Positions 2,124-24,533 of a DNA stretch of 64,000 nucleotides are shown here, piece after piece. Source of the stretch: Pseudothauera hydrothermalis (GTDB lineage: Bacteria; Pseudomonadota; Gammaproteobacteria; Burkholderiales; Rhodocyclaceae). Both the position numbers and the translations under genes were made by a program. The stretch is from the NCBI RefSeq assembly GCF_003345255.1, contig NZ_CP029331.1, positions 2,542,001 to 2,606,000 of the forward strand, given 5' to 3'. Position 1 is the stretch's first letter. The number at the start of each line of letters is the position of its first letter. The notes under the pieces were generated by a model, which saw only the letters and a list, made by a program, of their open reading frames with translations, ran no database searches and had not been told where the DNA came from.

Positions 2124-2245
2124 AAAATGACACCGTGATTCAAACAAAAACGGCCGGGCCCCGGTGTCGCCCTGGTCAATTACCGAATAGCTCCGTGGCG
2201 CGGCTACTCGATGACGCTAGCCACTTTCAGCAAAGGTTATCGACC

Positions 2246-3049: not shown

Positions 3050-3325
3050 ATGAACAAATTCACTATTCCGATGCTGGCAGGCTTCCTTCTCGCCATCACT
3101 GGCTGCGACAACACCCCACCCGCCCCGACCATGCCAGAGGTGAACGATGCCAACTGCCAGATGGCAGAAATCATGAAGATCGAAGACAAGGCAACTCGGG
3201 AGACATTTGCCGGGTTGTGCTCGCGCCGGCCAGCAGGGGACGGCATTTCCCCCACAGAGCAGCCGCTTACTAACTTTTCAATAAGTAGTGTCAGCCCAGG
3301 ATATAGCGGCACTCTGGCTGCCTAA
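3050..3325 (+). CDS. trbK: TrbK entry-exclusion lipoprotein, 3' end altered by IS630 insertion
   Basis: TrbK blocks uptake of a like plasmid by acting at the inner membrane. The product has a lipoprotein signal (lipobox ITGC, cysteine about residue 19) and the TrbK motif DANCQ...IEDKATRETFAGLCSRR. A strong AAGGAGAGG site precedes ATG 3050. The IS630 element entered at TA 3282-3283: codons up to ...LTNFSI are native, after which the frame runs 13 codons into the element. Joining the two flanks through one TA gives I-W-E-T-Q-stop, so only the last four native residues were replaced. The protein may still work. The insertion also separates trbK from trbL. Confidence 0.82.
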   Translation: MNKFTIPMLAGFLLAITGCDNTPPAPTMPEVNDANCQMAEIMKIEDKATRETFAGLCSRRPAGDGISPTEQPLTNFSISSVSPGYSGTLAA

Positions 3326-6852: not shown

Positions 6853-6859
6853 GGCCGCC

Positions 6860-7327
6860 ATGCTGGAGCAGCTCGAACAACGAATTAACGAAGTAGGCGC
6901 CTTGCAAACCAAGCTGATCCTGCTGATTGGCAGCCCCGGTAGCGGCAAGAGTGCCTTGATCGGTGCATTAGCAAAGCAGCACGGCATCCGTGTGATGAAC
7001 GTCGGCGCCGCCTTGGGCCGCCAGTTGGCCGCGATGTCTCAGCGGCAGCGGGCACTCCAGGCAAATGTGGTTCTGCGGGATCTGGCTGATGAACATGCCG
7101 AGGGTGACCTGCTGTTGCTCGACAATCTCGAGCTGCTGTTCGACCGCTCGCTCAAGCTGGACCCGCTGGACCTGCTCAAGCGCCACGCCCATGGCCGCCG
7201 CGTAGTCGCGGTGTGGCCTGGTGAGCTGCGCGAAGGCCGGCTTGTCTATGCCGAGATGGGGCATCCGGAATATCAGGACTACGGCCTGGATGGCCTGGTT
7301 CCATTTGAAATTGAATCGTTGGGGTAA
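6860..7327 (+). CDS. brxF: BrxF, small P-loop ATPase of type 3 BREX
   Basis: A 155-aa protein with Walker A GSPGSGKS (24-31) and Walker B-like LLLLDNLELLF (84-94), the size and motif layout of BrxF. BrxF is the hallmark small gene that opens type 3 BREX operons immediately before brxC, as here (11-bp gap). Its exact role is not established; a nucleotide-binding partner of BrxC is plausible. The start is ATG 6860, just after the brxR stop; the frame is open further upstream inside brxR, but that part is brxR sequence. Confidence 0.85.
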   Translation: MLEQLEQRINEVGALQTKLILLIGSPGSGKSALIGALAKQHGIRVMNVGAALGRQLAAMSQRQRALQANVVLRDLADEHAEGDLLLLDNLELLFDRSLKLDPLDLLKRHAHGRRVVAVWPGELREGRLVYAEMGHPEYQDYGLDGLVPFEIESLG

Positions 7328-10300: not shown

Positions 10301-11064
10301 TGCAGCAGGCCCAGACAGCCCGCAAGGAGATTCTCGACAAACTCATCGCGGACAAGAGCGCCACGCATGCCGCCGAGTACCGCCAGCGCCTGGCCGCCCT
10401 GAAGAAGGACTACATCACCGCCTACGTGGCCCAGCACAGCAAAGCCCGGCTCGGTGTGGCGGAGGACAAGACCAAGTCCGCCCTGCGCCGCGACTCGCGC
10501 ATCACCACGCTGCGCGCCCTGGCGGGCATCTCGCTGATGCCTACCGGGCAGCTCACCAGCTTCGAAGACAAGCTCGACAAGCTCAAAAGCTGCGCCTCGC
10601 TGGTCGAAGCTGAGCTGGCCACCAGCCCGGTATGCCCGCACTGCGGTTTCCGGCCGGCCAACGAGCAAGCCGACCTGCTGCCAGCCGCCAACGTGCTCAA
10701 GACGCTGGATGACGAGCTCGATCGCCTGCTCGATGGGTGGCAGCAGACCCTGCTGGACAACCTCGACGACCCGATCATCCAGGCCAACTTCGAGCTGCTG
10801 AAGGCCAGCCAGCGCGAGCTGATTACCGCCTTCCTGGCGTCCAAAACACTGCCCGACCCGGTCACGCCGGAATTTGTGGCCACCATCCAGGAGGCACTGT
10901 CCGGCCTGGAGAAGATCCTGGTCACTGGCGACGACATTAAACAGGCGCTGCTCGCCGGCGGCTCTCCGGCCACACCTGACGATCTGCGCCGCCGCTTCGA
11001 GTCATTTATGACCGAGCGCTGCAAGGGCAAGGATGCGAGCAAGCTGAGATTCGTAGTCGAGTGA
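7339..11064 (+). CDS. brxC: BrxC/PglY, large AAA-type ATPase of BREX
   Basis: A 1241-aa P-loop protein with Walker A GNYGTGKS (67-74) and Walker B LLVVDEFLEFL (173-183), matching BrxC in size and motifs. BrxC is an essential BREX core protein and probably works with PglX and PglZ on phage DNA. The rest is largely helical. A single CPHC pair lies near residue 1098, and coiled-coil-like stretches lie around 900-1050. It follows brxF by 11 bp. Usually pglX would come next in type 3 BREX; here the SIR2-HerA pair intervenes 22 bp downstream. The frame is intact and high in G+C, unlike the following two genes. Confidence 0.92.
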   Translation: MRYGDLIQFEPIESVIQLLDANRPTEAKKLVATYVISDDMAERIAKQMIPQLSFDESVDHKGVLVVGNYGTGKSHLMSVLSLIAEDAAYVPMVQHPKVAEAAGSIAGKFKVHRIEISSQMSLRDIITQELEIFLEKQGVSYAFPPADKVVNNKAAFEEMMAAFDEVHPGKGVLLVVDEFLEFLRSRKGHDLVLDLSFLREIGEVTKHLRFRFVAGVQEAIFDSSRFQHVADSLRRVNERFAQVLLARQDVSFVVAERLLKKSADQQHKIRTYLTPFAKFYHNMNERMDEYVRLFPVHPDYIGTFERLIFTEKRGALVTLRDQIQAILDDEVPTDRPGLIGFDKFWETVTSNSVLRSDPNIGPVLKVAEVLEERVQKAFTRPAYKAMALRVIKGLSVHRLTTGGDIYVPVGPTAEELRDALCLYQPGIEDLGGEPSDDLLTAVQTTLREIVKTVNGQFISKAPDTEQYYLDLKKDVDYDAQIEKRAEALSDDALDRAYYSALMQLMERTEEDTYVTGYRIWQHQVEWQERRVERNGYLFLGAPNDRPTAQPERDFYIYFIQPFEPPRFRDDSRPDEVFFRLKGLDDAIKRYLACYAAAQELASSASGGAKSVYLDKAKEALRDMSKWLQDKQLTAFEVTYQGKTKTLQEWAKGVSMRDKLRLGPDERANFRDIVNVTSGLALGTHFADLAPEYPTFSVLVTESNRKQLITNALKALAGGTRTKDAIAILDALEMLDGDRIEPTRSKYGQEVLNRLQAKGHGQVLNRSELISGATDVEYFAPARFRLEPDLLVAVLGSLIYSGDIVLAITGDKIDSGKLSLLVERALDELKTFKHVEAPKEINVAVLRSLFELLGLPSGFAQMATQGKEEPVKELLDAVAKQVQRVLRVGTDLQDRLSFWGQSLLREEELRDWRARLEALKSFLDGLSPYNTVGKLKNLRITQADIDAQKKNLDVLSSVEKLRDLVAELGTTAAFLSQAEMVLATDHAWVQQAQTARKEILDKLIADKSATHAAEYRQRLAALKKDYITAYVAQHSKARLGVAEDKTKSALRRDSRITTLRALAGISLMPTGQLTSFEDKLDKLKSCASLVEAELATSPVCPHCGFRPANEQADLLPAANVLKTLDDELDRLLDGWQQTLLDNLDDPIIQANFELLKASQRELITAFLASKTLPDPVTPEFVATIQEALSGLEKILVTGDDIKQALLAGGSPATPDDLRRRFESFMTERCKGKDASKLRFVVE

Positions 11065-11086: not shown

Positions 11087-12181
11087 ATGACCACACCATT
11101 GCTTACGGAAGAAATAGCGATTAAGGCAATCCGGGACTTCTTCCGCGGAAAGCCTTTCGTGTTCTTCGGGACAGGAATGTCATGTGCAATGGACATGGGT
11201 TTCGGCATGCCTGCGCTTCGGGATGAACTTGTGCGGAGAATGCAGGAACGAGTCCTCACCGCCGCCCAGGCATCTGAATGGCAAGGCGTAGCAGACGCGC
11301 TTCAACAAGGAGCTGATCTTGAGAGTTCCCTGAACGCAGTCAACGATCATGGTCTGTTGAGAATAGTGACGGAAATCACCGGCGCATTCGTCGCCGGTCT
11401 GGATAGGCAATACGCATATTCGATCGCACAGGGTACGACAGAGTGGCCGCCAAGCCGACTTCTTTCCCGCTTGATTGAAACGCTTCCAGAAAGCGATGGC
11501 GTCTTGCATGTACTTACGCCCAACTATGATTTGCTGTTCGAATATGCCTGCGATTTCTCGGGAATACCCTACACCAACGGGTTGTTCGGCGGCATCGAAC
11601 GTAAGGAAGACTGGACGGCCGTGGATCGCGCATTGCGTGAACCGTGCAGGATTTGCCAAGGCCGAAGGATAAGAACGGTCTGGCGCCACAGGAAGCACGC
11701 TCGCTTATACAAGGTGCATGGGTCACTGAACTATTTTCTCCACCGGAACGCCGTTATTGAAAACAACGCATGGATGTGGAGTCCGCCAGAGTTCGCTGAG
11801 CGCGTCATGATCACTCCGGGCCTGTCGAAGTATCAGGCGCTTCAACGTTACAGGCGTGAACTACTGCAATACGCGGACAGTGCAGTGGAGAGTGCGACGC
11901 ACTTCCTCTTTCTCGGGTATGGCTTCAATGACAGCCACCTAGAAGAGTATGTCAAGCGCAAGCTCGTCACGCAGTCGAGTCCAGGCCTGATCGTCACAAG
12001 AGACTGCAATCCGAGAATCGAGTCGTTGCTCGGCCAGTCAGAAAATCTTTGGTTGGTCTGCAAACTGGACGACGAAGACGGAACGAGAATCTTTAATAAG
12101 CGCTACTCCGGCTGGCTGGAGTTAAAGGGCCAGAACCTATGGGACGTGCGTGACTTCACAGTCAGAATATTCGGGAGCTGA
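11087..12181 (+). CDS. SIR2-family NADase-like defence protein (SIR2-HerA pair)
   Basis: A 364-aa protein with the SIR2 fold signatures of bacterial defence effectors. They are GTGMS (28-32, the GAGxS-type NAD loop), PNYDLLFEYA with N146/Y147/D148, VHGS with the catalytic-type H211, and GYGFNDSHL (277-285). Proteins of this kind paired with HerA cleave NAD+ when phage infection is sensed, causing growth arrest. All key residues are present, so activity is expected but not shown. The downstream herA starts after two bases. A site with AAGGTGA precedes ATG 11087. By eye the gene is less G+C-rich than brxC, suggesting separate origin. Four cysteines or CxxC-like residues (187-190) form no full zinc site. 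Confidence 0.85.
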   Translation: MTTPLLTEEIAIKAIRDFFRGKPFVFFGTGMSCAMDMGFGMPALRDELVRRMQERVLTAAQASEWQGVADALQQGADLESSLNAVNDHGLLRIVTEITGAFVAGLDRQYAYSIAQGTTEWPPSRLLSRLIETLPESDGVLHVLTPNYDLLFEYACDFSGIPYTNGLFGGIERKEDWTAVDRALREPCRICQGRRIRTVWRHRKHARLYKVHGSLNYFLHRNAVIENNAWMWSPPEFAERVMITPGLSKYQALQRYRRELLQYADSAVESATHFLFLGYGFNDSHLEEYVKRKLVTQSSPGLIVTRDCNPRIESLLGQSENLWLVCKLDDEDGTRIFNKRYSGWLELKGQNLWDVRDFTVRIFGS

Positions 12182-12183
12182 TC

Positions 12184-13923
12184 ATGCCTATTTTTACGTT
12201 TGACACATCTTATTCACTGGGGAAGGTTCGCCTGGTCGATACGCGCAAGGTCAATATCCAGGTCAATAGCGATGAGGATTTGCGGAAGGCACGAGTCGGG
12301 CAGCTTGTCGCACTGTCGTTGCCTGGCGCCGTCGAAGAGTGGCTGATCGGCATCATCGAGAAGGTGGTGAAGACACCCGTTCTCGAAGACATTTCCGTTC
12401 AGCATGATGACGATTCTGCTGATGCAGCGGAACTGAATTTATTGCGCGAGAGCGTTCACAACACGGTTCAACTCACCCTGGTTGGTACCGTCGGTTTGAC
12501 AAACGAGAATAAACCAAAGTTTTCGCGATCCTTGGTCCAAGTGCCGGAGATAGACGCAGGGTGTTTCATACTGCGTGATGCGCAGTTGCAGACATTCATG
12601 AACTTGCTCTCTAAGGAAGGCAAGACCGAACATTCCCTGGAGGTTGGCCGTTACACCATTGATGAGTCGGCGAAGGCTTATCTGGATGGGAACAAGCTAT
12701 TTCAACGACATGCGGCCCTGCTCGGCAGCACCGGCTCTGGCAAGTCCTGGACTGTTGCTGCCATTCTCGAACAGGCTTCAAAACTCCCCTCATCGAATCT
12801 GATCGTTTTCGACTTGCACGGCGAATACCGAGAGCTGAGCTATGCCCGGCATCTCCGCGTTCCTGGACCGGAAGATCTTGGGAAGTCGGACCCGGCTCTG
12901 CTTTTCCTACCTTACTGGCTCCTCAACACGGAGGAGCTGCAAGCCATGTTCATCGATCGGAGTGAGTTCAGTGCTCACAACCAAGTGATGGCTTTTCAGG
13001 ATACGGTTGTTGCGAAGAAGAAAGAGACGCTTGAGAAGCACAAGAAAACAGAGGTTCTAAATGCGTTTACTCTCGATAGTCCTATTCCGTTCGATATCAA
13101 TAGTGTGATCGCCGAGCTACAGCGGCTCAACGAAGAAATGGTGCCTGGTGCAAACAATAAAGAGAGGCAAGGCCCATTCCATGGGCAATTCAGCCGTTTA
13201 CTGCTGCGTCTGAACAGCAAGGTCAGCGACAAGCGCTATGGCTTCCTGTTCCAGGCACCGACATCTGAACATGGCTATGACGCCATGGCCGCTTTGGTCA
13301 AGCGGCTCATGGACTACTCGGAAGACAAGTCTCAGATCAAGGTCATCGATTTTTCCGATGTGCCCGCCGACATTCTTCCCGTAATCGTTGGCTTGGTTGC
13401 CAGAATCATCTATCAAGTCCAGTTCTGGATGGACCGCAACAAGCGTCGTCCATTGGCTCTGGTCTGTGATGAGGCACACCTCTACCTGCCCAAGAAGGAC
13501 GGGAAGAACCCCGTCGAGCAGCGCGCTATCGAGAATTTCGAGAAGATCGCCAAGGAAGGACGCAAGTACGGTGTTGCGCTCCTTGTGGTCAGCCAGCGGC
13601 CTGCCGATGTCAGCACGACGATACTGAGTCAGTGCAACAACGTCATCGCCTTGCGCCTGACCAACGGGGATGACCAGAACACGGTCAGACGCTTGATGCC
13701 GGAAAGCCTGGAAGGGCTGATGGATACGCTTCCCATCCTGGATATAGGGGAGGCTTTGGTCGTGGGTGACGCCGTACTGCTGCCCAGCCGAATCAAGATT
13801 CATGCGCCCCAAGAACGGCCACTCAGCGCCACCATTGAATTCTGGGATGAATGGAGTGAGGCGCCAGGGACGCCTGACTTTGCGAAGGCGGTGGAGAACA
13901 TGCGCAGACAGAATAGGGCCTGA
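12184..13923 (+). CDS. HerA-type hexameric ATPase, partner of the SIR2 protein
   Basis: A 579-aa FtsK/HerA ATPase. An N-terminal HAS-barrel-like domain (about 5-125) precedes the motor domain with Walker A GSTGSGKS (181-188), Walker B LALVCDEAHLYLP (424-436) and the SQRPADVSTTILSQ sensor segment typical of HerA. The protein forms hexamers that assemble with SIR2 or other nuclease partners in defence complexes. It lies two bases after the SIR2 gene and its TGA overlaps the pglX ATG by one base. Thus the pair is translationally tied to both sides of the BREX operon. A GGGAG site before ATG 12184 sits inside the SIR2 gene. It is intact; housekeeping HerA of archaea is a distant relative only. 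Confidence 0.88.
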   Translation: MPIFTFDTSYSLGKVRLVDTRKVNIQVNSDEDLRKARVGQLVALSLPGAVEEWLIGIIEKVVKTPVLEDISVQHDDDSADAAELNLLRESVHNTVQLTLVGTVGLTNENKPKFSRSLVQVPEIDAGCFILRDAQLQTFMNLLSKEGKTEHSLEVGRYTIDESAKAYLDGNKLFQRHAALLGSTGSGKSWTVAAILEQASKLPSSNLIVFDLHGEYRELSYARHLRVPGPEDLGKSDPALLFLPYWLLNTEELQAMFIDRSEFSAHNQVMAFQDTVVAKKKETLEKHKKTEVLNAFTLDSPIPFDINSVIAELQRLNEEMVPGANNKERQGPFHGQFSRLLLRLNSKVSDKRYGFLFQAPTSEHGYDAMAALVKRLMDYSEDKSQIKVIDFSDVPADILPVIVGLVARIIYQVQFWMDRNKRRPLALVCDEAHLYLPKKDGKNPVEQRAIENFEKIAKEGRKYGVALLVVSQRPADVSTTILSQCNNVIALRLTNGDDQNTVRRLMPESLEGLMDTLPILDIGEALVVGDAVLLPSRIKIHAPQERPLSATIEFWDEWSEAPGTPDFAKAVENMRRQNRA

Positions 13924-16697
13924 TGATGGACGAGCAGCTTAACCTTGGGAAAAACGCAAAAGACGCCGAGCCGGTCGAATGCCTTGGGCAAAAATTCCCG
14001 AGCGACCAAGCGCGGCGCGAGCACTTCTTGAAACTGCTGGCTGAGAAGCTGAAAGATCCGGCATTCCGCAAGCAGGATGGTTTTCCGCAAGGATCGGACG
14101 AGGCCATTCTGGCCATGTCCGATCCGCCGTACTACACCGCGTGCCCGAACCCCTGGCTCGCGGACTTCGTGAAGCACTACGGCAAGCCCTATGACCCGAA
14201 GGAACCGTATCGGCGCGAGCCGCTGGCCATCGACGTGTCCGTAGGCAAGACTGACGCTATTTATCGGGCGCACGCTTACCACACCAAAGTGCCGCATCTG
14301 GCCATCGTGCCGTCGATCCTGCACTACACCAAGCCGGGTGACGTGGTGCTGGATGGGTTCGCCGGTTCGGGTATGACGGGCGTGGCCGCACAGTGGTGCG
14401 GTACAGCGCCTGCCAGCTACCGGCATGAGATCGAGATGGCCTGGAAGAAACAGGGTCGTCCGGCACCGCGATGGGGGGTACGACGCGTCGTGCTCAACGA
14501 TCTGTCGCCTGCGGCGACCTTCATCGCAGCCAACTACAACACCCCGTTCGATGTCGATGCCTTTGCCAAGGCGGGCAAGCAGCTTCTCAAGCAGGTCGAG
14601 CAGGAAATCGGCTGGATGTATGAGACGCTGCACAGCGATGGCAAGACCATAGCGCGTATTGACTACACGGTATGGAGTGAGGTGCTGAGCTGTCCAGCCT
14701 GTGCGGGTGAAATTGTGTTCACCGACGCCGCCCTGGATGAAGAAACAAAGGCGGTCGCTGATGTGCTGACGTGTCCCCATTGTGGCGCGCAAGGCAAGAA
14801 GGAGCAGATGGACCTGCGCTTTGAGACATTTATTGACCCAGCGACAGGGCAGACGGAGAAGCGACCGAAGCGTGTGCCCGCGCTCATCTCGTACAAGCTG
14901 GGAAAGACGGCTTATACCAAGAAGCCGGACGAGGCTGACCTGGAGCGAATCGCAAAGATTGCCTCGCTTCCGATTCCCGAAAACCTGCCGATCGATCGCT
15001 TCCCGGATTGTCAGATGACACGGGTTGGCCGCATGAAAACGACGAACTCTGCGGCCATCCACTTCATGTTCTTGCCACGTGCGGCGCAAGCAATGGCACT
15101 GCTTTGGGGCAAAGCCAATTCGAGTGCCGACCCTCGAACTCGAAGCATGTTGCTCTTTATGGTGGAGCAGGCTGTTTGGGGCATGTCTATCCTTGCACGG
15201 TACACGCCTACTCATTTCTCGCAAGTAAATCAGTATCTGAGTGGCGTGTACTACGTGGCATCACAGCACTCCGAGTGCAGTCCGTGGTACATCCTTGCTG
15301 GGAAGCTCGATCGATTGGCTAAGGCGTTCCGCAACTATCAGGCGCATCCTGCGAAAGCAGTGATAAACACTGGAACAGCCGCACGTTTGGCTTTGTCGGA
15401 TAACTCCGTCGATTACATCTTCACGGATCCGCCTTTCGGCGAAAACATCTACTACTCCGACCTGAATTTTCTTGTCGAGTCTTGGCACGGCGTCAAGACG
15501 GACCCAGACCCGGAAGCCATCGTCGACCGTGTTCGCCAGAAGGGCATTCCGGAATATCAGCACCTGATGTACAGCTGTTTCGCTGAGTACTACCGGGTAC
15601 TCAAGCCTGGGCGCTGGATGACTGTGGTGTTCTCCAACAGCAAGGCAGCGGTCTGGAACACGATTCAGGTGGCCTTGCAGCAGACTGGGTTCGTAGTCGC
15701 CGAGGTCACCGCGTTGGATAAGAAGCAAGGCAGCTTCCAGCAGGTGATGTCGCCGAACACTGTGAAGCAGGATCTGGTGATCTCTGTCTACAAGCCGAAC
15801 GGTGGGCTGGAAGATCGCTTCAATAAACAAGGAGCGACGGTGGATTCGGCCTGGGACTTTGTGCAGACCCACTTGCGCAACCTTTCAGTGGTCAAGGCTA
15901 GAAACGGCGAGCTGGAATTCATCGTCGAGCGCGACCCACGCCGCATCTTCGACCGAATGGTGGCCTGGTTTGTTCGCCATGATGCGCCGGTGCCGCTGTC
16001 GAATGATGAATTTCTCTCCGGCTTGCGCAGTCGCTACCCAGAGCGCGACGGCATGGTCTTCCTTCCCGATCAAGTTGCTGAATACGACAAAAAGCGCGCC
16101 CAGGTGGCCCAGGCGCCGCAAATGGAATTGTTCGTCTCCGACGAGCGGAGCGCCATCGACTGGCTGACTGACTTCCTCAAGCGCCGCCCTTCGACTTATC
16201 AGGAAGTTCACCCAGAGTTCACCACTCAGTTGGGCGCCGGCTGGAAGAAACACGAAGCCAAGCCGGAGCTGATGGCACTGCTGGAAAATAATTTCCTGAA
16301 GTACGAAGGTACTGGCGATGTACCGAGCCAGATCCACAGCTACCTCTCCACCAACCATAAGGACCTGCGTGGGTTGGAGAAGAACGATCCGCGCCTGATC
16401 GCCAAAGCCAAAGACCGCTGGTACGTGCCCGATCCGAACAAGGCACAGGATCTGGAGAAGAAACGCGAAAAGGCACTGCTTAAGGAGTTCCAGGTATACC
16501 AGGCCTTCACCGGCCGACGCCTTAAGGAGTTTCGTCTGGAAGTGCTGCGCGCCGGCTTCAAGGAAGCCTGGGGCAAGAAGGACTACCAGACCATCATCGC
16601 CGTGGCCAAGAAGATCCCCGATGAGGCACTGCAGGAAGACGAAAAGCTGCTGCTCTGGTATGACCAGGCACTGACTCGAACCGAGGACGGCTTGTGA
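13923..16697 (+). CDS. pglX: PglX (PglXI), adenine-specific DNA methyltransferase of type 3 BREX
   Basis: A 924-aa DNA methyltransferase that would mark host DNA and help discriminate phage DNA. Motif order is unusual: SDPPYYTACPNPWL (66-79) comes before the SAM-binding FAGSGMTG (146-153). A second DPPFG (502-506) follows a CxxC/CxxC zinc-ribbon-like insertion (cysteines 257/260 and 284/287). The C-terminal third is a helical target-recognition or BREX-specific part. Motif IV preceding motif I resembles the beta class, as in DUF1156-type methylases. The ATG overlaps the herA stop. Which DPP motif is catalytic is not clear from sequence. The recognition sequence cannot be predicted. Confidence 0.9.
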   Translation: MMDEQLNLGKNAKDAEPVECLGQKFPSDQARREHFLKLLAEKLKDPAFRKQDGFPQGSDEAILAMSDPPYYTACPNPWLADFVKHYGKPYDPKEPYRREPLAIDVSVGKTDAIYRAHAYHTKVPHLAIVPSILHYTKPGDVVLDGFAGSGMTGVAAQWCGTAPASYRHEIEMAWKKQGRPAPRWGVRRVVLNDLSPAATFIAANYNTPFDVDAFAKAGKQLLKQVEQEIGWMYETLHSDGKTIARIDYTVWSEVLSCPACAGEIVFTDAALDEETKAVADVLTCPHCGAQGKKEQMDLRFETFIDPATGQTEKRPKRVPALISYKLGKTAYTKKPDEADLERIAKIASLPIPENLPIDRFPDCQMTRVGRMKTTNSAAIHFMFLPRAAQAMALLWGKANSSADPRTRSMLLFMVEQAVWGMSILARYTPTHFSQVNQYLSGVYYVASQHSECSPWYILAGKLDRLAKAFRNYQAHPAKAVINTGTAARLALSDNSVDYIFTDPPFGENIYYSDLNFLVESWHGVKTDPDPEAIVDRVRQKGIPEYQHLMYSCFAEYYRVLKPGRWMTVVFSNSKAAVWNTIQVALQQTGFVVAEVTALDKKQGSFQQVMSPNTVKQDLVISVYKPNGGLEDRFNKQGATVDSAWDFVQTHLRNLSVVKARNGELEFIVERDPRRIFDRMVAWFVRHDAPVPLSNDEFLSGLRSRYPERDGMVFLPDQVAEYDKKRAQVAQAPQMELFVSDERSAIDWLTDFLKRRPSTYQEVHPEFTTQLGAGWKKHEAKPELMALLENNFLKYEGTGDVPSQIHSYLSTNHKDLRGLEKNDPRLIAKAKDRWYVPDPNKAQDLEKKREKALLKEFQVYQAFTGRRLKEFRLEVLRAGFKEAWGKKDYQTIIAVAKKIPDEALQEDEKLLLWYDQALTRTEDGL

Positions 16698-16933
16698 TTC
16701 TAGCGGTGTGCCGTAATCCACTGATCAGCACCACCCGGCATGTCTGGGTGGTGCTCGGTCGCGCCTGGGATCAAGTCGGGACCAAGTTGGGACCAAGTCG
16801 GGCTGATACCACCGGGGTAGTCGCCGGGGAAGTTACCGGGGAAGTTCGCCGATGCTGCGAAGCGAAGCTGGGCGCGGTTAAGCACCATGAAACCAGACCA
16901 GTGACAAGCCTGCCGATTGGGGGCAGCCAATGA
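16694..16933 (+). CDS. possible small coupled ORF between pglX and brxHII
   Basis: A 79-codon frame starts at GTG 16694, overlapping the pglX stop (GTGA), and ends at TGA 16931-16933, overlapping the brxHII start (ATGA). It thus tiles the only sizeable gap in the operon exactly. The product is basic with no recognised domain; its middle (DQVGTKLGPSR) is encoded by short tandem repeats. No Shine-Dalgarno site is evident. It may be a translated linker that carries ribosomes to brxHII, a decayed gene end, or chance. Confidence 0.3.
   Translation: MILAVCRNPLISTTRHVWVVLGRAWDQVGTKLGPSRADTTGVVAGEVTGEVRRCCEAKLGAVKHHETRPVTSLPIGGSQ
16727..16755 (+). terminator. hairpin in the pglX-brxHII gap (attenuator-like)
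   Basis: Perfect 10-bp arms AGCACCACCC (16727-16736) and GGGTGGTGCT (16746-16755) enclose a 9-base loop. No T-run follows, so it is not a standard intrinsic terminator. It could pause transcription or stabilise the upstream mRNA. Confidence 0.4.
16772..16804 (+). repeat. three 11-bp tandem repeats
   Basis: CAAGTCGGGAC, CAAGTTGGGAC and CAAGTCGGGCT run head to tail, differing by one to two bases. A second short duplication, CCGGGGAAGTT twice, follows at about 16825-16850. Both lie in the gap before brxHII. Unit length is near one helical turn, as in protein-binding arrays, but the cause is unknown. Confidence 0.7.
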
Positions 16934-19767
16934 CACGGCGACCAAACGATTACACCATTGGCGATTGGTGCTGGTTCGTCCGGCAGGCGACGCCGTGCCG
17001 CGTCGTTGAACGCCAGGACGTGTGGGGCGAGGTGGCCTATCGCGTATGGCTACCGGCCAAGAATACGGTGGTGCGTGCCCGTGCGCAGGATCTCGACGAT
17101 CTGGCAGCGGTGCGCCCGGCGGTTGAGCAGATCCTGCATACGGCGGCATCCGCAAAGTTGCTGGATGCGCTGGAAGACAACCTGCTGCTAGCCCCCATCC
17201 AGTCCAGCGTGGTGCCGCTACCCCATCAGCTGTATGCGCTGAATCGGGCCATGAGCCGCGACCGCATTCGCTACCTGCTGGCGGACGAAGTGGGCCTGGG
17301 CAAGACCATTGAGGCCGGCCTGATCCTGCGCGAGCTGAAGCTGCGCGGCATGGTGCGGCGGGTGCTGGTGGTGGCCCCCAAAGGCCTGATTCGTCAATGG
17401 CAGGCGGAGATGCGTTTGCATTTTGGCGAGCACCTGCGCTTTATCGAAGCCACCGAGCTGGCTGCCTTTCGCGCCTGGCGCGCCGAGGGCACCCAGAATG
17501 ACGACAACCTCTGGGCCATGCACGACCAGGTGATTGTGTCACTGGACTCGGTCAAGCCCATTGAAGGCCGTCGGGGCTGGAGCCTGGAACAACTCAACAG
17601 CTACAACCGCGAGCGTTTCGAAGACCTGGTTTCCGCCGGCTGGGATCTGGTGATCATTGATGAGTCCCACCGCATGGGTGGCAGTACCGACCAGGTCGCC
17701 CGCTACAAGCTGGGCGCCGCTCTGGCCGAAGCGGCGCCCTACCTGTTGCTGCTGTCCGCTACGCCACATCAGGGCAAGACCGATCAGTTTTTGCGCCTGA
17801 TGCAGTTGCTAGACCGCGAAGCCTTTGTTGATGAAGGCAGCATTCATCGTGACCGGGTGCAGCCTTTTGTTATCCGCACCGAAAAGCGGTCCGCCATCAA
17901 TGCCGATGGCCAGCCCTTGTTCAAGCCGCGTTCCACGCGGTTGCAGGCGGTTGCCTGGCAGGCACGGCACACGGCGCAGAAGCAGCTGTATGACGCAGTC
18001 ACCGACTATGTGCGCCACGGCTACAACCAGGCCATGGCCGCCAAGCAACGCCACATCGGTTTTCTGATGATCCTGATGCAGCGGCTGGTGACCTCCAGCA
18101 CCGCAGCCATCCGTGCCACGCTGGAGAGACGACAGGCCTTGCTGGATGCGCCACAGCCACAGGCCAACCTGTTCGATAACGTGGACCTGGACGAATGGGC
18201 AGAGCTTGACGGGCAGTCACAACTCGACGTGGCGCTGCAGGCCAGCAACTGGGAGCAGGAAAAGGCCGAAGTCGAGATGCTGCTTGATCTGGCCCGGGAA
18301 ACCGAGCGGCAAGGCACCGATGCCAAGGCCGAAGCGCTGCTGGAGCTGATCTACAAGCTGCAACAGGAAGAGAACGACCCCGAGCTGAAGGTGCTGGTGT
18401 TCACCGAGTTTGTGCCCACCCAGGCCATGCTGGCCGAGTTTCTGGAAAGCCGCGGGTTTTCCATTGCCCTGCTTAACGGCGGCATGGATCTGGAGGCGCG
18501 CACCCGCGCCCAGCAGGCATTTTCCCGCGATGTACGTGTGCTGATCTCCACCGACGCCGGCGGTGAGGGCCTGAACCTGCAGTTCTGCCATGTGATCGTG
18601 AACTTCGATATGCCCTGGAACCCGATGCGCCTGGAGCAGCGAATCGGCCGCGTTGACCGCATTGGCCAGGCCCATGTGGTGCGCGCCATCAACTTCGTGC
18701 TGGAAGACACGGTGGAGCACCGGGTGCGCGAAGTGCTGGAGCAGAAGCTGGAGATCATTGCCCAGGAGTTCGGCGTCGACAAAGCCGCCGACGTGATGGA
18801 CTCCGTGGAAGTCGAGCCGCTGTTTGATGAGCTGTTTGTGTATGGCTTGCAAGACCCAGAATCCATCGACAAGGAGTGCGATGCGGTCATCAATCAGGTA
18901 CGCGAGAAAGTGGCCGCGAGCCGTGCCGATACGGATCTGCTGACCGACGATCACCCGCTGGAAGCGGTTGAGTCCCAGAAATGGCGGGACCACCCGGCGC
19001 AATACTGGCTGGAGCGTGCGGTAACAACCGGCCTGCCCACCCGTGGCGGCGCAGCGGAGCAGTCAGACCATGCCTGGCGTTTAACCTGGGCGGATGGCAG
19101 TGAATCTTTCCCTGTCTGCTTCGATGCGCGAACCGCTGAGCAGAACCCTGAGATGGAATGGATCACGCTGGAAGATCCCCGAGCCCGTGCGCTGATCGGC
19201 GATCTGCCGCGCTGCGTGGCCGGACAGCCGCTGCCGGTCGTACAGGTAACCGGACTGCCTGACACCGTGCAGGGCACCTGGTCACTGTGGAGCGTGAGCC
19301 TGGCTGCTTCCAACAGTTCTGCCAACTTCACCCGGCGTCGCTTCCTGCCGGTCTTTGTTACTGATGATGGGCGCAGCTTTGTCCCCACGGCCAAGCGGAT
19401 CTGGGATCTGTTGCTGACCGAAGAGGTGCGCCTGACAGCAGACCCAGACAGTGAGCATGCAGCCGCACTCTTTGAGCAATCGCTGACGGCAGCCAAAGGT
19501 CAGGGTGAGCGGCTGTTCTCCGAGCTGCTGGAAGAGCACCGAACCTGGCTTGCCGAGGAACGTGAGCGCGCCCGCTATGCCTTTGAGTCGCGCTTTCAGG
19601 CCATTGGCCGAATCGGTCTGCCTGCCGTCCGCGAACACCGGCGTAAGCGCCTTGAAGCCCAGCATCAGGCCCGTATGGCGGATCTGGCGGAAGCAGAAGC
19701 CTGCACGCCAGAGCTGAATGCCGTGCTGATACTGCGCATTGGCTCGGCGGGAGGTGCCGCAGCATGA
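16930..19767 (+). CDS. brxHII: BrxHII, SNF2/DEAD-like helicase of type 3 BREX
   Basis: A 945-aa superfamily 2 helicase/translocase. It has an N-terminal SH3-like part (about 1-60), motif I LADEVGLGKT (117-126), motif II DESH (244-247), motif III SATPH (276-280) and motif VI RIGRVDRIGQ (571-580). These identify the SNF2/RapA-like subgroup used by BrxHII. A C-terminal domain rich in charged residues (about 860-930) is probably accessory. This helicase is specific to type 3 BREX and is expected to move on DNA during phage exclusion. The stop overlaps the pglZ start (ATGA). Confidence 0.92.
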   Translation: MTRRPNDYTIGDWCWFVRQATPCRVVERQDVWGEVAYRVWLPAKNTVVRARAQDLDDLAAVRPAVEQILHTAASAKLLDALEDNLLLAPIQSSVVPLPHQLYALNRAMSRDRIRYLLADEVGLGKTIEAGLILRELKLRGMVRRVLVVAPKGLIRQWQAEMRLHFGEHLRFIEATELAAFRAWRAEGTQNDDNLWAMHDQVIVSLDSVKPIEGRRGWSLEQLNSYNRERFEDLVSAGWDLVIIDESHRMGGSTDQVARYKLGAALAEAAPYLLLLSATPHQGKTDQFLRLMQLLDREAFVDEGSIHRDRVQPFVIRTEKRSAINADGQPLFKPRSTRLQAVAWQARHTAQKQLYDAVTDYVRHGYNQAMAAKQRHIGFLMILMQRLVTSSTAAIRATLERRQALLDAPQPQANLFDNVDLDEWAELDGQSQLDVALQASNWEQEKAEVEMLLDLARETERQGTDAKAEALLELIYKLQQEENDPELKVLVFTEFVPTQAMLAEFLESRGFSIALLNGGMDLEARTRAQQAFSRDVRVLISTDAGGEGLNLQFCHVIVNFDMPWNPMRLEQRIGRVDRIGQAHVVRAINFVLEDTVEHRVREVLEQKLEIIAQEFGVDKAADVMDSVEVEPLFDELFVYGLQDPESIDKECDAVINQVREKVAASRADTDLLTDDHPLEAVESQKWRDHPAQYWLERAVTTGLPTRGGAAEQSDHAWRLTWADGSESFPVCFDARTAEQNPEMEWITLEDPRARALIGDLPRCVAGQPLPVVQVTGLPDTVQGTWSLWSVSLAASNSSANFTRRRFLPVFVTDDGRSFVPTAKRIWDLLLTEEVRLTADPDSEHAAALFEQSLTAAKGQGERLFSELLEEHRTWLAEERERARYAFESRFQAIGRIGLPAVREHRRKRLEAQHQARMADLAEAEACTPELNAVLILRIGSAGGAAA

Positions 19768-21794
19768 CGTATTTATCCAAAGATAATGTCGCGCATCGCA
19801 GCACACTGCTGGCTGATCGGATTCTGAAGGAATTCCCATCCGACCTGGCCCGGCTGTGGATTGTGGCGGACCCGGACAACGTGCTGCTGGACGAGCAGGT
19901 GCTGGCCGGACTGCGTGAACGCGGCTTCGAGGTGCTGTCGTTTGAGGATAGCATCGCCTTTCGGGCCGAGTATGAAGAGCGCTACCGTGCCGCCTGGGAG
20001 GCTGAGGAGGCCAATGCACCCAGCGCCCTGGTCATTCAGGTGCGCGATTCCAGCACTGCGGAGTTGCCCTGGGATTACTTACGCCAGGCGCGCAAGGTCA
20101 GCCTGTCGCTCGCAGAGCTATTCCCAAAGCTGAGCTACACGGTACTCAGGCAGCTGGGTAGTGAGATCCTGCCGTTGCTGTTCGAGGTGCAGGCGCGCCA
20201 CGCGACGCAGGCGATGGGCGAAGCCGCCACCAAAGAATTTGTGCTGACGCACATCTACCGGGTAAGCCCCCACTTGATTACCCGACCAGAGGATTTGTGG
20301 CGTGAGCTGCTGCGGCTGCACTACCGTGAGACGCTGCTCCCTCAGACCCTGGCCGAGCATATTCAACAGGTATTGGCTGACCGGCCGGTGTTCGCCAACA
20401 GCCCGATTGCCGAGCTGTTCTCCAACAGAAGTTTTGCGCTGCGTGTGGTGCAGGACGCCTGGTACCGCTACCTGAACAAACTGGGACTGATCGGCAGACG
20501 CACGGCGGAGCCGGTAGCGCCGGACTACATACCGCAGCTCGACATTCCCTTCGAGCATCACGACATCCGCGTAATCATTGATTCGATGTTCCTGGACGGC
20601 ACGCTACACCCGCTTGCCATTCAGGGCGTGCCGGTCAGCTTGCCGGAATGGGCAAAAGCCGGCGTAGTGCAGGACCCTGCGGCGATGCGCAACCTGGTGC
20701 TGGAGGGTATCAAGAGCCTCAGTGAAGAGCTGCCTGGCGCTACATCGTCTCACAGGGATTGGACCCACTTTGCCCGGCGCCTAGGCGAAGTGATCTCGCG
20801 TTTCCACAGTCTGGATGCTGCGCGCGCAGAAGGCCTGAAGGCGGACATGAAGGATCTGGTGGCACGCGCCGACAGTGAGCTGCAAACCTGGGTTCAGGCG
20901 CACTACGCTGACTTACCTTCCCTGCCCGCTGCCAAGGGGCCGGTAATGGTGCATCAAGTACCGCGCTACCTGGCAATGCGCCGAGCTAACGGTGAGGAAA
21001 AAATTGCGCTGGTCGTCTTCGACGGGTTGGCTGTCGATCAGTGGACACAGATTCGCGAAAACCTCATCGAGCACGCGCCACGTCTGATGTTTGATGAAAA
21101 TGCCTGCTTTGCCTGGCTGCCCACCCTGACGTCCATTTCCAGGCAGGCGTTGTTCTCCGGCCTGCGCCCACGGGAGTTCGCCGAGCATATCGAAACAACC
21201 TCAAAAGAACCTCAGCATTGGACCCGGTTCTGGCAGGACCAGGGATTACGTGCCAACGAGATCCTCTATCGAAAGGCGATCAAGCGCACTGATGAGCTGC
21301 CGGAGTTGCAGGAGCTGCTCTCGAATCCTGCTCTGAAAGTCGCCGGCCTGGTGGTGGATACCGTGGATGAAATCATCCACGGCGCCGTGCTCGGCAAACG
21401 CGGTGTGGCTGCACAGATCAACAGCTGGTGTGAGTCGGGGTTTGTTGATCGGCTGTTTGCGATGCTGCTCGACGAGGGCTTCCACATCTACCTGACGGCC
21501 GACCACGGCAATGCAGAAGCTGTGGGTATTGGCCGCCCAAACCAGGGGGTTGCCTCGGAGCTGCGTGGCGAACGGGTGCGCACCTATCGCAGTGAAACCA
21601 TGATTGCCGAGACAGCAACTGCAATACCGGACAGCTTCCGTCTCGATATCGCAGGCCTGCCGGCCAACTTTATGCCGCTTTTTGCAGGAGAGCGCGGAGC
21701 CTTTGTTCCGAAGGGTGACCAGGTAGTGGTCCACGGTGGCATGTCCCTGGAAGAACTTATCGTGCCCTTTGTGAAAGTGAGTTACGTCAATTGA
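19764..21794 (+). CDS. pglZ: PglZ, alkaline-phosphatase-superfamily protein of type 3 BREX
   Basis: A 676-aa protein with the PglZ-type alkaline phosphatase core. It shows a metal-binding aspartate in ALVVFDGLAVDQW (D420), a nucleophile region PTLTSISRQALFSG (about 453-466) and TADHGNAEAVGIG (578-590) with D580/H581. PglZ is the universal BREX marker; its enzymatic target is not settled. The N-terminal half (1-390) is the BREX-specific helical part. ATG 19764 overlaps the brxHII stop, and the pglZ stop overlaps the brxA start. No defects seen. Confidence 0.92.
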   Translation: MTYLSKDNVAHRSTLLADRILKEFPSDLARLWIVADPDNVLLDEQVLAGLRERGFEVLSFEDSIAFRAEYEERYRAAWEAEEANAPSALVIQVRDSSTAELPWDYLRQARKVSLSLAELFPKLSYTVLRQLGSEILPLLFEVQARHATQAMGEAATKEFVLTHIYRVSPHLITRPEDLWRELLRLHYRETLLPQTLAEHIQQVLADRPVFANSPIAELFSNRSFALRVVQDAWYRYLNKLGLIGRRTAEPVAPDYIPQLDIPFEHHDIRVIIDSMFLDGTLHPLAIQGVPVSLPEWAKAGVVQDPAAMRNLVLEGIKSLSEELPGATSSHRDWTHFARRLGEVISRFHSLDAARAEGLKADMKDLVARADSELQTWVQAHYADLPSLPAAKGPVMVHQVPRYLAMRRANGEEKIALVVFDGLAVDQWTQIRENLIEHAPRLMFDENACFAWLPTLTSISRQALFSGLRPREFAEHIETTSKEPQHWTRFWQDQGLRANEILYRKAIKRTDELPELQELLSNPALKVAGLVVDTVDEIIHGAVLGKRGVAAQINSWCESGFVDRLFAMLLDEGFHIYLTADHGNAEAVGIGRPNQGVASELRGERVRTYRSETMIAETATAIPDSFRLDIAGLPANFMPLFAGERGAFVPKGDQVVVHGGMSLEELIVPFVKVSYVN

Positions 21795-22522
21795 AAACGA
21801 CCAATCCGCCTGCCCCAAAAATCGGCTTCGACCGCTACATAGCGCTGGAGTGGGCATCCGCTGCATTACGTGTGCGTGCCGGCCTGGCTGAACCCGATGA
21901 CATGAATGCCCTGCTGGATGAGGCAGGCCTCGGCGTGGCGGCACGCAAGAAGACGCGCACCGTACTGAATCGCCTATGGCTCGAACCGCGACCTGAACTG
22001 GCTAGCTTCGCCGAACGCGGTATCGCCATTTACAAAGCCAACCCTGGCGTCCCAACCGCTGCCCTGACCTGGGGAATGGCAATCGCCAGTTACCCATTCT
22101 TCGGCAAGGTCGCTGAACTGGTGGGCCGCTTGTCCGCACTCCAGGGAGACTGCGCCTCGACAGAAGTCCATCGCCGCATGAGCGAAGTCTATGGTGAGCG
22201 GGAAGGCACCTACCGCATGACCAACATGGTCCTGCAGTCGCAAGCCAGCTGGGGTGCCATCGAGCGCGTGGAGAAAGGCAAGCGCCTGGTCCGCCTGAAA
22301 CCCCTGGTGCTTAATCATGCCGAAACCATCGCCTGGCTGATCGAGGCGGCCTTGCGCTACGGCGGAAAATCGGTGTCCGTGGCGGCCCTGTCGTCCCTGG
22401 CGGTGCTCTATCCATTCGTTCTCGATCAACCCCTGGGCTACCTGGCGTCGCAAAGCCCGAACCTGACGCTCCACGCCCAAGGCCCTGGCAGCCAGGTGGT
22501 CGGCTTGCGGACAGAAGACTAA
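21791..22522 (+). CDS. brxA: BrxA-like protein closing the type 3 BREX operon
   Basis: A 243-aa, mainly helical protein in the position of brxA, the last gene of type 3 BREX. BrxA of other systems is a DNA-binding DUF1819 protein thought to assist the complex. I identify it from position, size and general character rather than a diagnostic motif. The first codon is TTG 21791, overlapping the pglZ stop (TTGA), consistent with coupled translation; the first in-frame ATG lies about 37 codons later and would cut into the conserved-looking part. A small ORF follows after 43 bp. Confidence 0.75.
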   Translation: MKTTNPPAPKIGFDRYIALEWASAALRVRAGLAEPDDMNALLDEAGLGVAARKKTRTVLNRLWLEPRPELASFAERGIAIYKANPGVPTAALTWGMAIASYPFFGKVAELVGRLSALQGDCASTEVHRRMSEVYGEREGTYRMTNMVLQSQASWGAIERVEKGKRLVRLKPLVLNHAETIAWLIEAALRYGGKSVSVAALSSLAVLYPFVLDQPLGYLASQSPNLTLHAQGPGSQVVGLRTED

Positions 22523-22833: not shown

Positions 22834-23024
22834 CAAATGGCCACCAGCGAAGCACGGCTGACTGTACTGAAAAGCAGGTGAAATCGGTACAGTAGCGGTA
22901 CACTCACCCGTTCTGGCTATCTTCGCAAAATTACGCTAACCTACTGTCATGTAAATACTTTTAGCTTTTCTGGCTTACGGTAGATTACCCCTGATTTTGC
23001 TGGGCTTGCAGCATTGCGTGCAAA
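22834..23024. other. non-coding element end
   Basis: About 190 bp without a supportable gene between the palindromes and the tRNA fragment. It contains two CGGTACA copies (in ATCGGTACAGTAGCGGTACA, about 22884-22903), possible integrase arm-type sites. The stretch becomes A+T-richer toward the tRNA fragment. No promoter or integrase gene is recognised. Confidence 0.4.
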
Positions 23025-23069
23025 CTCATAATCCTTTGGTTGCGGGTTCGAGTCCCGCAGGGCCCACCA
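23025..23069 (+). other. 3' fragment of a CAU-anticodon tRNA gene (attR-like site)
   Basis: The segment reads as the 3' half of a tRNA. It has anticodon loop CTCATAA (anticodon CAT at 23027-23029), T-stem GCGGG (23042-23046), T-loop TTCGAGT, T-stem CCCGC (23054-23058), acceptor strand AGGGCCC (23059-23065), discriminator A and CCA (23067-23069). The 5' half is absent: bases before the loop cannot form the anticodon stem, D-arm or a full acceptor stem. That is the scar expected on one side of an element integrated into a tRNA gene, with the intact copy on the other side (left of the window). The tRNA is Ile2 or elongator Met; the acceptor sequence favours Ile2 but does not decide. Confidence 0.82.
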
Positions 23070-23095
23070 AACACCGCTTTGCGACGTTTCAGCGT

Positions 23096-23131
23096 AACGG
23101 CTGCACCGCCTTGGGGCGGGCAGCCGTTTTT
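23096..23131 (+). terminator. intrinsic terminator of the original tRNA gene
   Basis: Arms AACGGCTGC (23096-23104) and GCAGCCGTT (23120-23128), extended by inner CCGCC/GGCGG around a TTGG loop with one bulged A, are followed by further Ts. It lies 27 bp after the tRNA CCA, so it terminated tRNA transcription before the integration and marks the chromosomal side of the junction. Confidence 0.85.
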
Positions 23132-23165
23132 GCTTTGCTCGCATGCTTGGCCGCTCGTGCGTGTC

Positions 23166-24533
23166 TTATCCGCCGCGCACCGCGAAACGCGCTGCCAGCG
23201 CGTCGAGCAGCTTGCCATGCACGCCACCGAAGCCGCCGTTACTCATGACCAACACATGGTCGCCAGGCAAGGCTTCGCCGCTTACTGCGGCCACCAAGGC
23301 ATCCAGGTCGGCATCGCAGCGCACCCGCTCGCCCAGCGGCGCAAGGGTTTCCTCAGCCTGCCAACTCAGGCCATGGGTGTAGCAATAAACTTTGTCGGCC
23401 TGCGCCAAGCTGCCGGGCAGCTCGGCCTTCATCACACCCAGCTTCATGGTGTTCGAGCGCGGTTCCAGGACCGCCAAAATACGCCCTGCGGGCTGGCGGC
23501 GACGCAGCCCCTCGATGGTCAGCGCAATCGCCGTCGGGTGATGGGCAAAATCGTCATAAACGGTGACACCGCCCACCTCACCCACTGCCTCCAGCCGACG
23601 TTTGATGCCGGCAAAGCGCGCCAGGCTGGCAATGGCTTGCTGCGGCGGCACCCCGACATGACGCGCAGCAGCGATGGCGGCCAGCGCGTTGGCGCGGTTG
23701 TGACGGCCCGCCAACGGCATGCTGACCCGGCCCAGCTCCTGCCCGCCCAAATAGAACGCCGCCTGACTGTCGTCGTCGCCTGCCGCACTCGACCACCCGG
23801 CGGCGTCCTCGAACCATTCCAGTTCCGACCAAAGGCCGCGCGCCAGAACCCTTCTGAGCGCACCTTCGGTGGCATTGGCAACGATGCGAGCGCTGCGCGG
23901 CATGGTGCGCACCAGATGATGGAACTGCGTCTCGATGGCCGCCAGATCGGGAAAAATGTCAGCGTGGTCGAACTCCAGGTTGTTCAAAATCAGGGTTCGC
24001 GGTCGGTAATGCACAAACTTGGAGCGTTTGTCGCAAAAAGCGGTGTCGTATTCGTCGGCTTCGATCACAAAGAAAGGCGAGTCGGTCAACCGGGCAGAGA
24101 GGCCGAAATTTTTCGGGACGCCGCCTACCAGAAAACCGGGCGCAAGGCCGGCGTCCTCCAGCATCCAGGCCAGCAACGAGGTGGTGGTGGTTTTGCCGTG
24201 AGTGCCGGCCACCGCCAACACCCACCGACCGGCCAGCACATGCTCGGCCAACCATTGCGGCCCGGATACATAAGGCAGCCCCCGATCGAGAATCGCCTCC
24301 AGCAAGGGGTTACCGCGGGAGATGGCATTGCCGATCACAAACATGTCCGGCGCCAGATCGAGCTGCGCCGGATCGTAGCCTTCGGTCAGTCCGATGCCTT
24401 GCTCGGCCAGTTGAGTGCTCATCGGCGGATAAACGTTGGCATCGCAGCCGGTCACCGTGTGTCCGGCCGCACGGGCCAGCAAGGCCACACCACCCATGAA
24501 AGTGCCGCAAATGCCGAGGATGTGGATGTGCAT
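23166..24533 (-). CDS. mpl: Mpl, UDP-MurNAc:L-Ala-gamma-D-Glu-meso-DAP ligase
   Basis: Mpl joins recycled tripeptide from old peptidoglycan to UDP-MurNAc in the cytoplasm, using ATP. The 455-aa product has the Mur ligase layout. These are an N-terminal nucleotide-binding domain starting MHIHILGICGTFMGG, central ATPase with P-loop GTHGKTT (110-116) and EADEYDTAF, and a C-terminal domain with YDDFAHHPTA and LEPRSNTMK, both typical of Mpl. Length is normal. It is the first gene on the chromosomal side of the tRNA scar and is divergent from the next gene, sharing a 92-bp upstream region. Confidence 0.96.
   Translation of the reverse strand: MHIHILGICGTFMGGVALLARAAGHTVTGCDANVYPPMSTQLAEQGIGLTEGYDPAQLDLAPDMFVIGNAISRGNPLLEAILDRGLPYVSGPQWLAEHVLAGRWVLAVAGTHGKTTTTSLLAWMLEDAGLAPGFLVGGVPKNFGLSARLTDSPFFVIEADEYDTAFCDKRSKFVHYRPRTLILNNLEFDHADIFPDLAAIETQFHHLVRTMPRSARIVANATEGALRRVLARGLWSELEWFEDAAGWSSAAGDDDSQAAFYLGGQELGRVSMPLAGRHNRANALAAIAAARHVGVPPQQAIASLARFAGIKRRLEAVGEVGGVTVYDDFAHHPTAIALTIEGLRRRQPAGRILAVLEPRSNTMKLGVMKAELPGSLAQADKVYCYTHGLSWQAEETLAPLGERVRCDADLDALVAAVSGEALPGDHVLVMSNGGFGGVHGKLLDALAARFAVRGG

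Follow-up and report, generated by a model that had tools for sequence, protein, structure and literature searches.

In the Islander survey of genomic islands, the rule is that an island carries a fragment of its target and the target gene is restored; the tRNA islands in the available portions of that source have a tyrosine integrase, a crossover in the anticodon loop and a displaced 3' fragment at the far end (PMC4383910). A second group of comparable elements, an IncP island and GIsul2, inserts at the 3' end of guaA and encodes an integrase together with relatives of TrbJ and TrbL of IncP plasmids, and the use of IncP helper plasmids has been proposed for them; the island also encodes TraJ-like relaxosome proteins and a relaxase (accessible text of PMC5704250). 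Archaeal pTN3-like integrases target tRNA genes in such a way that the working copy relies on element DNA, with attB in the 5' half and expression from the integrase promoter, and integration in archaea is described as regenerating an intact tRNA, the few exceptions concerning promoter use (PMC8371274, available sections). At the split tRNA-Thr locus of Caldiarchaeum, the 5' fragment precedes a second tRNA-Thr; a mobile element separates or adjoins the two, and a putative recombinase lies beside the locus. The second tRNA, 1.8 kb from the fragment in one archaeal population, was read as reconstitution from attP plus attB, and a tRNA intron was discussed as protection of the site (PMC3293823, available sections).

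The element described here has its right end within the window, a 64-kb stretch (G000:C1:2542001-2606000) of a single-contig 3.06-Mb genome, and its left end outside the window (locus L035). Like the Islander tRNA islands, it has an adjacent tyrosine integrase, a crossover in the anticodon loop and a displaced fragment at the far end. As far as the available part of the survey describes them, those islands restore the split gene (PMC4383910), whereas here it is left in two pieces and a different, complete tRNA takes its place; no restoration of the target tRNA by an element-borne fragment was found at this locus, where a stump remains and a separate complete tRNA lies inside the element. Relatives of TrbJ and TrbL are shared with the IncP island and GIsul2, and TraJ-like relaxosome proteins with the IncP island, but the element described here occupies a tRNA gene beside rpoD, no relaxase was seen among its scanned open reading frames (ORFs), and no replacement tRNA is described for the IncP island or GIsul2 in the available text (PMC5704250). 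The reliance of the working tRNA on element DNA recalls the pTN3-like integrases (PMC8371274, in part), and a 5' fragment placed ahead of another tRNA of its kind recalls Caldiarchaeum; there, unlike here, the available text describes no whole tRNA that the element itself carries between the two host halves (PMC3293823). A whole replacement tRNA is absent from the available portions of PMC4383910, PMC5704250, PMC8371274, PMC9897764, PMC3293823 and PMC10333595, and no element with one was found in a limited literature search, most subscription papers being outside its scope. In our reading, the tRNA fragment at the right end of the element is very probably the scar of integration by whole-tRNA replacement.

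The features of the right end, in window coordinates, are as follows.

23024 to 23033, plus strand: core ACTCATAATC at attR, the same 10 bases being present at both junctions with differing flanks

23024 to 23069, plus strand: displaced 3' half of the host CAU tRNA, which joins with the 5' half to give an intact tRNA

23096 to 23131, plus strand: intrinsic terminator of the host tRNA, with a significant fold and a similar hairpin in G001

23166 to 24533, minus strand: chromosomal Mur-ligase family gene of the right flank (mpl of the original prediction), with three Mur-ligase Pfam domains

The original prediction had described the last 45 bases of a CAU tRNA lacking its 5' half, and the sequence from 23025 to 23069 does read through CCA as such. 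The segment is in fact 46 nt long (23024 to 23069), is preceded by unrelated sequence and is 100% identical to positions 32 to 77 of the rebuilt host tRNA. ARAGORN found no whole tRNA in the 64-kb window, and an Rfam search of the fragment at a relaxed threshold gave nothing near a gathering score. The fragment is not a chance match, because joining it with a 5' half 28.6 kb to the left yields an intact tRNA and because a genome of the same genus (G001) holds that whole tRNA at 99% identity. Downstream, a hairpin at 23096 to 23128 is followed by a T-run to 23131. This hairpin was missed by a simple terminator scan, but the region from 23070 to 23140 folds at -33.7 kcal/mol (z -3.76), a value equaled by 0 of 200 shuffles. 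Its proposed origin as the terminator of the original chromosomal tRNA is borne out by the similar hairpin that follows the intact tRNA of G001, the two genomes sharing 80.6% identity over 108 bp that include the tRNA half and the hairpin. The placement of the attachment-site junction at 23,024/23,025, with the element extending to the left, likewise held; the same core recurs 28,563 bp away. The right flank itself gave less: mpl was not found within approximately 1.5 kb of the intact tRNA in G001 or in two genomes of the same family (G035 and G064), so that conservation of the right flank is unsupported by this gene. The original prediction had further staked itself on a second copy of the 45 bases. 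Searches of the complete 3.06-Mb genome with the 141-nt region and with the last 32 nt (up to 3 mismatches) found none, the segment occurring only once, and the model as first written therefore fails.

At the left end, the order after rpoD is the 5' half of the host tRNA (the stump), 76 nt of other DNA, a complete CAU tRNA (the spare) and a tyrosine integrase gene, located in G000:C1 (and in L035) as follows.

2536430 to 2536470 (L035:6430-6470): 5' half of the host tRNA, 100% identical to positions 1 to 41 of the rebuilt host tRNA

2536461 to 2536470 (L035:6461-6470): left copy of the core ACTCATAATC, 28,563 bp left of the right copy

2536547 to 2536623 (L035:6547-6623): spare CAU tRNA, complete

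2536695 to 2537813 (L035:6695-7813): tyrosine integrase gene (Pfam Phage_integrase, 1.1e-29)

The spare is the best-scoring tRNA of the genome, begins 28.5 kb left of the fragment and is followed after 72 nt by the integrase gene; no consensus promoter was found before it in a promoter scan. An intact CAU tRNA beside an integrase had been expected at this end and is present there, but the expected identity with the 3' 45 bases is lacking: only the 10-bp ACTCATAATC is exactly common to the spare and the right-end fragment, and over its length the spare matches the rebuilt host tRNA at 82% identity. The two host halves, when joined, give a 77-nt tRNA that is 99% identical to the intact tRNAs of G001, G035 and G064, all of which adjoin rpoD. 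On these alignments, the host tRNA gene is split at its anticodon loop and its halves lie 28.6 kb apart.

To place this arrangement among its relatives, the best 80 of 285 confirmed stretches from GTDB genomes and 14 IMG/VR loci carrying related integrases were collected, giving, together with our own, 95 loci, of which three had too little upstream sequence and 92 were assessed. Two copies of CTCATAAT lying 116 to 117 nt apart before the integrase were found in 12/92 loci (L035 to L039, L043, L045 to L047, L049, L052 and L138), and all 12 have a host-like 5' half, a 75- to 76-nt spacer, a complete 77-nt CAU tRNA and the integrase. Within 350 nt of the integrase, 63/92 loci have a single tRNA (42 CAU, 19 CAA and 2 TGT), a textbook-like layout as classed by the upstream tRNA and not by displaced halves, and no upstream tRNA was found in 15. 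The remaining two, L059 and L061, have a pair of tRNA-Lys genes (TTT then CTT) upstream of their integrases. Hosts of the 12 split-plus-spare loci belong to Chromatiaceae, Pseudomonadaceae, Marinobacteraceae, Neisseriaceae, Lysobacteraceae, Comamonadaceae and Hydrogenophilaceae, in addition to bins without a family, and the layout is thus present in at least seven named families.

A displaced 3' half, in each case AACTCATAATC, was identified for our own element and eight others (9/12), on the same contig in L036, L038, L047 and L049 and on another contig of a draft assembly in L039, L043, L045 and L052; none was found for L037, L046 or L138, the last a viral-contig fragment. In all nine genomes with both halves, ARAGORN recognized the joined halves as an intact tRNA, with 12/12 acceptor and anticodon pairs formed in each. 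Mismatched combinations of halves averaged 10.3 pairs and were perfect in 10 of 72 cases, and the observed total was reached once in 100,000 permutations. The pattern ACTCATAATC-N90..120-ACTCATAATC was found in G000 only, being 1 of 369 genomes of the class and 1 of 398 of the phylum (overlapping samples, and a pattern that misses other spacings). A chance repeat of the core was rejected, as the double-core pattern is absent from the 368 other class and 397 other phylum genomes; by the same counts, the replacement layout is rare.

On the left, 12/12 loci have paired GGTACA-like repeats at 183 or 184 nt from the core, a distance kept even though spacer identity falls to 33%. On the right side, GGTACA precedes AACTC by 125 or 126 nt in 8 of the 9 elements with a known right end, the exception being L039, where none occurs in the 200 nt available. 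In the window, these repeats are located as follows.

22886 to 22902, plus strand: two GGTACA repeats, putative integrase arm-type sites, at a position conserved in 8/9 elements

The arrangement resembles an attP flanked by arm sites, the putative role of the repeats. Of the 44 single-core loci, 42 also have a GGTACA-like pair, its distance varying from 67 to 193. In one of these, L048, which is related to L045 to L049, the core-to-repeat distance of 67 equals 184 minus 117, as if the repeat-to-repeat stretch between two cores had been deleted and replacement had turned into restoration, although this is a single case. Mapped onto a tree of 91 integrases, the replacement layout requires five changes, at least four of them forced by well-supported branches; it is clustered beyond shuffling (0/500) and does not form a single clade. 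By this tree, the layout is one that has been gained or lost more than once.

Among the left-end segments compared across the 12 loci, the spare tRNA is the most conserved, with a mean pairwise identity of 0.93. The host 5' halves follow at 0.88, the integrase gene (its first 900 nt) at 0.77, the gap between tRNA and integrase at 0.65 and the spacer at 0.55. Six distinct spare sequences were identified, in which 99.2% of cells are paired and four pairs have changed on both sides (reached by 2/500 shuffles). The covariation score was reached by 0/500 shuffles, and sliding the structure destroys the signal. By its conservation and covariation, the spare looks functional. When stump, spacer and spare were folded together, the probability of the spare acceptor stem was 0.00 to 0.93, versus 0.80 to 0.97 for the spare alone. 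At our own locus it was 0.42 with the native spacer, 0.04 without a spacer and 0.08 with shuffled spacers, but at other loci the native spacer was no better, or worse, and a protective folding role of the spacer is hence not claimed. A search of plasmids with the spare gave two tRNA-sized matches, and no match to the integrase was found in the plasmid collection at E 1e-60. Six annotated features surround the match in an Aeromonas plasmid, one of them a "recombinase family protein."

Three CAU tRNAs were identified in the genome and typed by sequence as the spare, an elongator-Met type and an initiator type. The scan covered 42 distinct tRNA sequences (2 of 53 hits, both long-armed, were left out), and neither a tRNA-Ile with anticodon UAU nor another Ile2-like tRNA was among them. 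The lysidine synthase TilS is encoded in the genome (TIGR02432, 160.5 bits, above cut-off). In 10 other host genomes, most of which are drafts or bins, the spare was the only whole tRNA found with the ACTCATAATC arm (up to 2 mismatches). The AUA codon is rare, accounting for 12/294 isoleucine codons in 14 mechanically called ORFs of the right flank and 15/216 in seven ORFs of the element. In Escherichia coli, ileX adjoins rpoD. By elimination of the other CAU types and from the site beside rpoD, as for E. coli ileX, the split tRNA and the spare are probably both tRNA-Ile2, reading AUA.

Several other explanations of the locus were weighed. An intact CAU tRNA beside the integrase at the other end, and the single tRNA found there in most related loci (63/92), are what textbook integration would produce, with the intact tRNA as the host gene restored by the element's 3' half and the fragment as the displaced original. 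However, the host 5' half is still present on its own, as a stump that ends 76 nt ahead of the intact tRNA, by which simple restoration is refuted at this locus; the 45-nt segment has no second copy and the stump-plus-spare layout recurs in 12 loci, and we regard this explanation as extremely improbable. It is scarcely more credible that two neighboring host CAU tRNA genes were present, of which one was split and the intact one lies outside the element. Two CAU tRNA sequences do lie within 120 nt at the left end, but the intact one sits between both host halves and is therefore inside the insertion. Moreover, spacer, tRNA and integrase travel together into several families, backbone stretches 90 to 98% identical occur in three other hosts, and G001, G035 and G064 show the host tRNA beside rpoD, with further partial matches listed in G001 only (the displaced half and a distant weak one). 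Neighboring host tRNAs were accordingly rejected, as the spare lies between the host halves and travels with the integrase.

A very unlikely history is one of successive integrations and deletions at the same site, with the stump as older debris and the spare restored by a second element. The target is used repeatedly, as in G001, where the intact tRNA is followed by a 1.1-kb remnant and then by a displaced 3' half whose terminator is duplicated, and the layout changed five times on the integrase tree. Against this, the outermost halves fit perfectly in 9/9 genomes, and spacer length and core-to-repeat distance are constant within 1 nt in 12/12 loci; the fit and the constant spacing argue for one unit inserted in one event. 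The spare might instead be incidental cargo, losable without cost since AUA is rare (the 12/294 of the right flank). We consider this unlikely too, given that no Ile-UAU or other Ile2-like tRNA was among the 42 distinct sequences scanned and that the spare is the most conserved of the segments compared.

Integration by whole-tRNA replacement, the reading preferred here, draws on the split of the host gene, the fit of its halves, the element-borne spare with its conservation and covariation, and the layout of the 12 loci, all features of sequence. The tyrosine integrase would recombine the 10-bp core of the element with the anticodon loop of the host CAU tRNA beside rpoD, cutting the gene into a 5' stump and a 3' half that come to lie 28.6 kb apart. 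The element brings no matching 3' half; a whole tRNA of the same kind, which it carries 76 nt in from its left end, would take over. The spare may be transcribed, perhaps by read-through from the host tRNA promoter, and would be modified by TilS and needed by the host. Replacement could allow the element to enter hosts with different tRNA sequences, and loss of the element other than by precise excision would be expected to harm the host.

The locus would represent a recurring, cross-family exception to the restoration rule, in which the broken gene stays broken and is replaced, and this would explain how one element enters hosts whose tRNA sequences differ. More tentatively, and with somewhat less than even confidence, we propose a class of mobilizable elements that destroys a single-copy, probably essential tRNA gene, supplies its own tRNA and spreads across distant families, imprecise loss being punished, as in a tRNA addiction module. 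Under such a scheme, the elements could spread between distant families because they need not match the host tRNA, and loss other than by precise excision would be punished because the host would depend on the element's tRNA for AUA. This suggests a simple route by which a mobile element may become indispensable. Island finders may overlook such elements, or place their boundaries wrongly, if they require the displaced fragment to match the intact tRNA.

The element is approximately 28.6 kb long, and its backbone consists of genes for the integrase, for a NikA-like protein (with a traJ-II RNA), for a weakly matching TrbJ-like protein and for TrbL. The genes within the window are as follows.

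1588 to 2109, plus strand: NikA-like relaxosome protein gene (Pfam NikA-like, 2.2e-22)

1604 to 1707: traJ-II RNA motif (Rfam RF01760, 93.2 bits)

2135 to 3034, plus strand: TrbJ/VirB5-like gene, a weak match (Pfam T4SS, 3.2e-4, below the curated cut-off)

4415 to 5794, plus strand: TrbL/VirB6 gene (Pfam TrbL, 6.7e-39)

5941 to 6852, plus strand: WYL-domain regulator (Pfam WYL, 1.3e-13)

6779 to 7327, plus strand: brxF (PADLOC BrxF, 1.9e-43)

7339 to 11064, plus strand: brxC (PADLOC BrxC, 1808 bits)

11087 to 12181, plus strand: SIR2 gene within the BREX operon (PADLOC, 1.9e-162)

12184 to 13923, plus strand: HerA gene within the BREX operon (PADLOC, 1.7e-232)

13923 to 16697, plus strand: pglXI (PADLOC PglXI)

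16930 to 19767, plus strand: BREX helicase (Pfam only)

19764 to 21794, plus strand: pglZ (PADLOC PglZ)

21791 to 22522, plus strand: brxA (PADLOC BrxA)

The TrbJ of the related L047 element gave a match of 1.5e-72. Type III BREX consists of brxF, brxC, pglXI, brxHII, pglZ and brxA. The set is complete here in one operon, five genes being recognized by PADLOC and the helicase by Pfam only, and the operon differs from type III BREX in the SIR2-HerA pair inside it. A type III-like BREX is also the cargo of the Pseudomonas element at L038. The position taken by SIR2-HerA (window 11087 to 13923) holds two unrelated large ORFs in this Pseudomonas element (L237:9973-13844), neither with a PADLOC match; on this comparison, the BREX-internal position is a cargo slot inside a defense operon. 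Other cargo includes matches to a type I restriction enzyme, an AbiP2-like reverse transcriptase, HerA and SIR2 in L036 and restriction-modification pairs in L047 and L049. Backbone stretches of L036 (Thiohalocapsa), L037 (a Nevskiales bin) and L038 are 90 to 98% identical to our own, except for one 258-bp stretch of L037 at 76%, and L047 and L049 have only the left end in common with it (73 to 74%). These identities are consistent with spread of the element between families. An IS630-like and a second DDE transposase gene, two copies each (L035:9183-11455 and window 200 to 1333 and 3291 to 4325), interrupt the backbone; the copies give identical proteins, and L036 and L038 align on either side without these stretches.

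Nine partially matching loci were examined among the 61 genomes sampled from the family. In G001, the locus L243 (G001:C3:23000-26000) is a remnant in which the intact host tRNA and terminator are followed by 1.1 kb containing two small ORFs that by eye resemble a toxin-antitoxin pair. Its right end is 89 to 91% like the L045, L047 and L049 elements, and a second tRNA 3' half with a terminator copy follows (117 bp at 98%). In three of the nine loci (G034, G011 and G063), a second CAU tRNA lies downstream of a 5' stump, at spacings that differ from those above. Because none of the ten ORFs scanned next to them encodes an integrase, these loci may represent remnants or a different type of element. 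In G034 and G011, the anticodon arm of the second tRNA is interrupted by a group I-like intron (Rfam Intron_gpI, 3.2e-7 and 2.2e-10, respectively, each short of the gathering score). Such introns in CAU tRNA anticodon arms lie at L242:961-1172 (G034), at L247:479-688 on the minus strand (G011) and at L244:591-691 (G047). An intron at this position would hide the integrase target, a putative protection of the tRNA. A RES/Xre toxin-antitoxin-like pair adjoins the stump-plus-second-tRNA locus in G034 (L242:2236-3616), and a methylase and a ResIII helicase gene adjoin that in G063 (L253:414-4909); by these similarities, the neighbors are again defense-type cargo.
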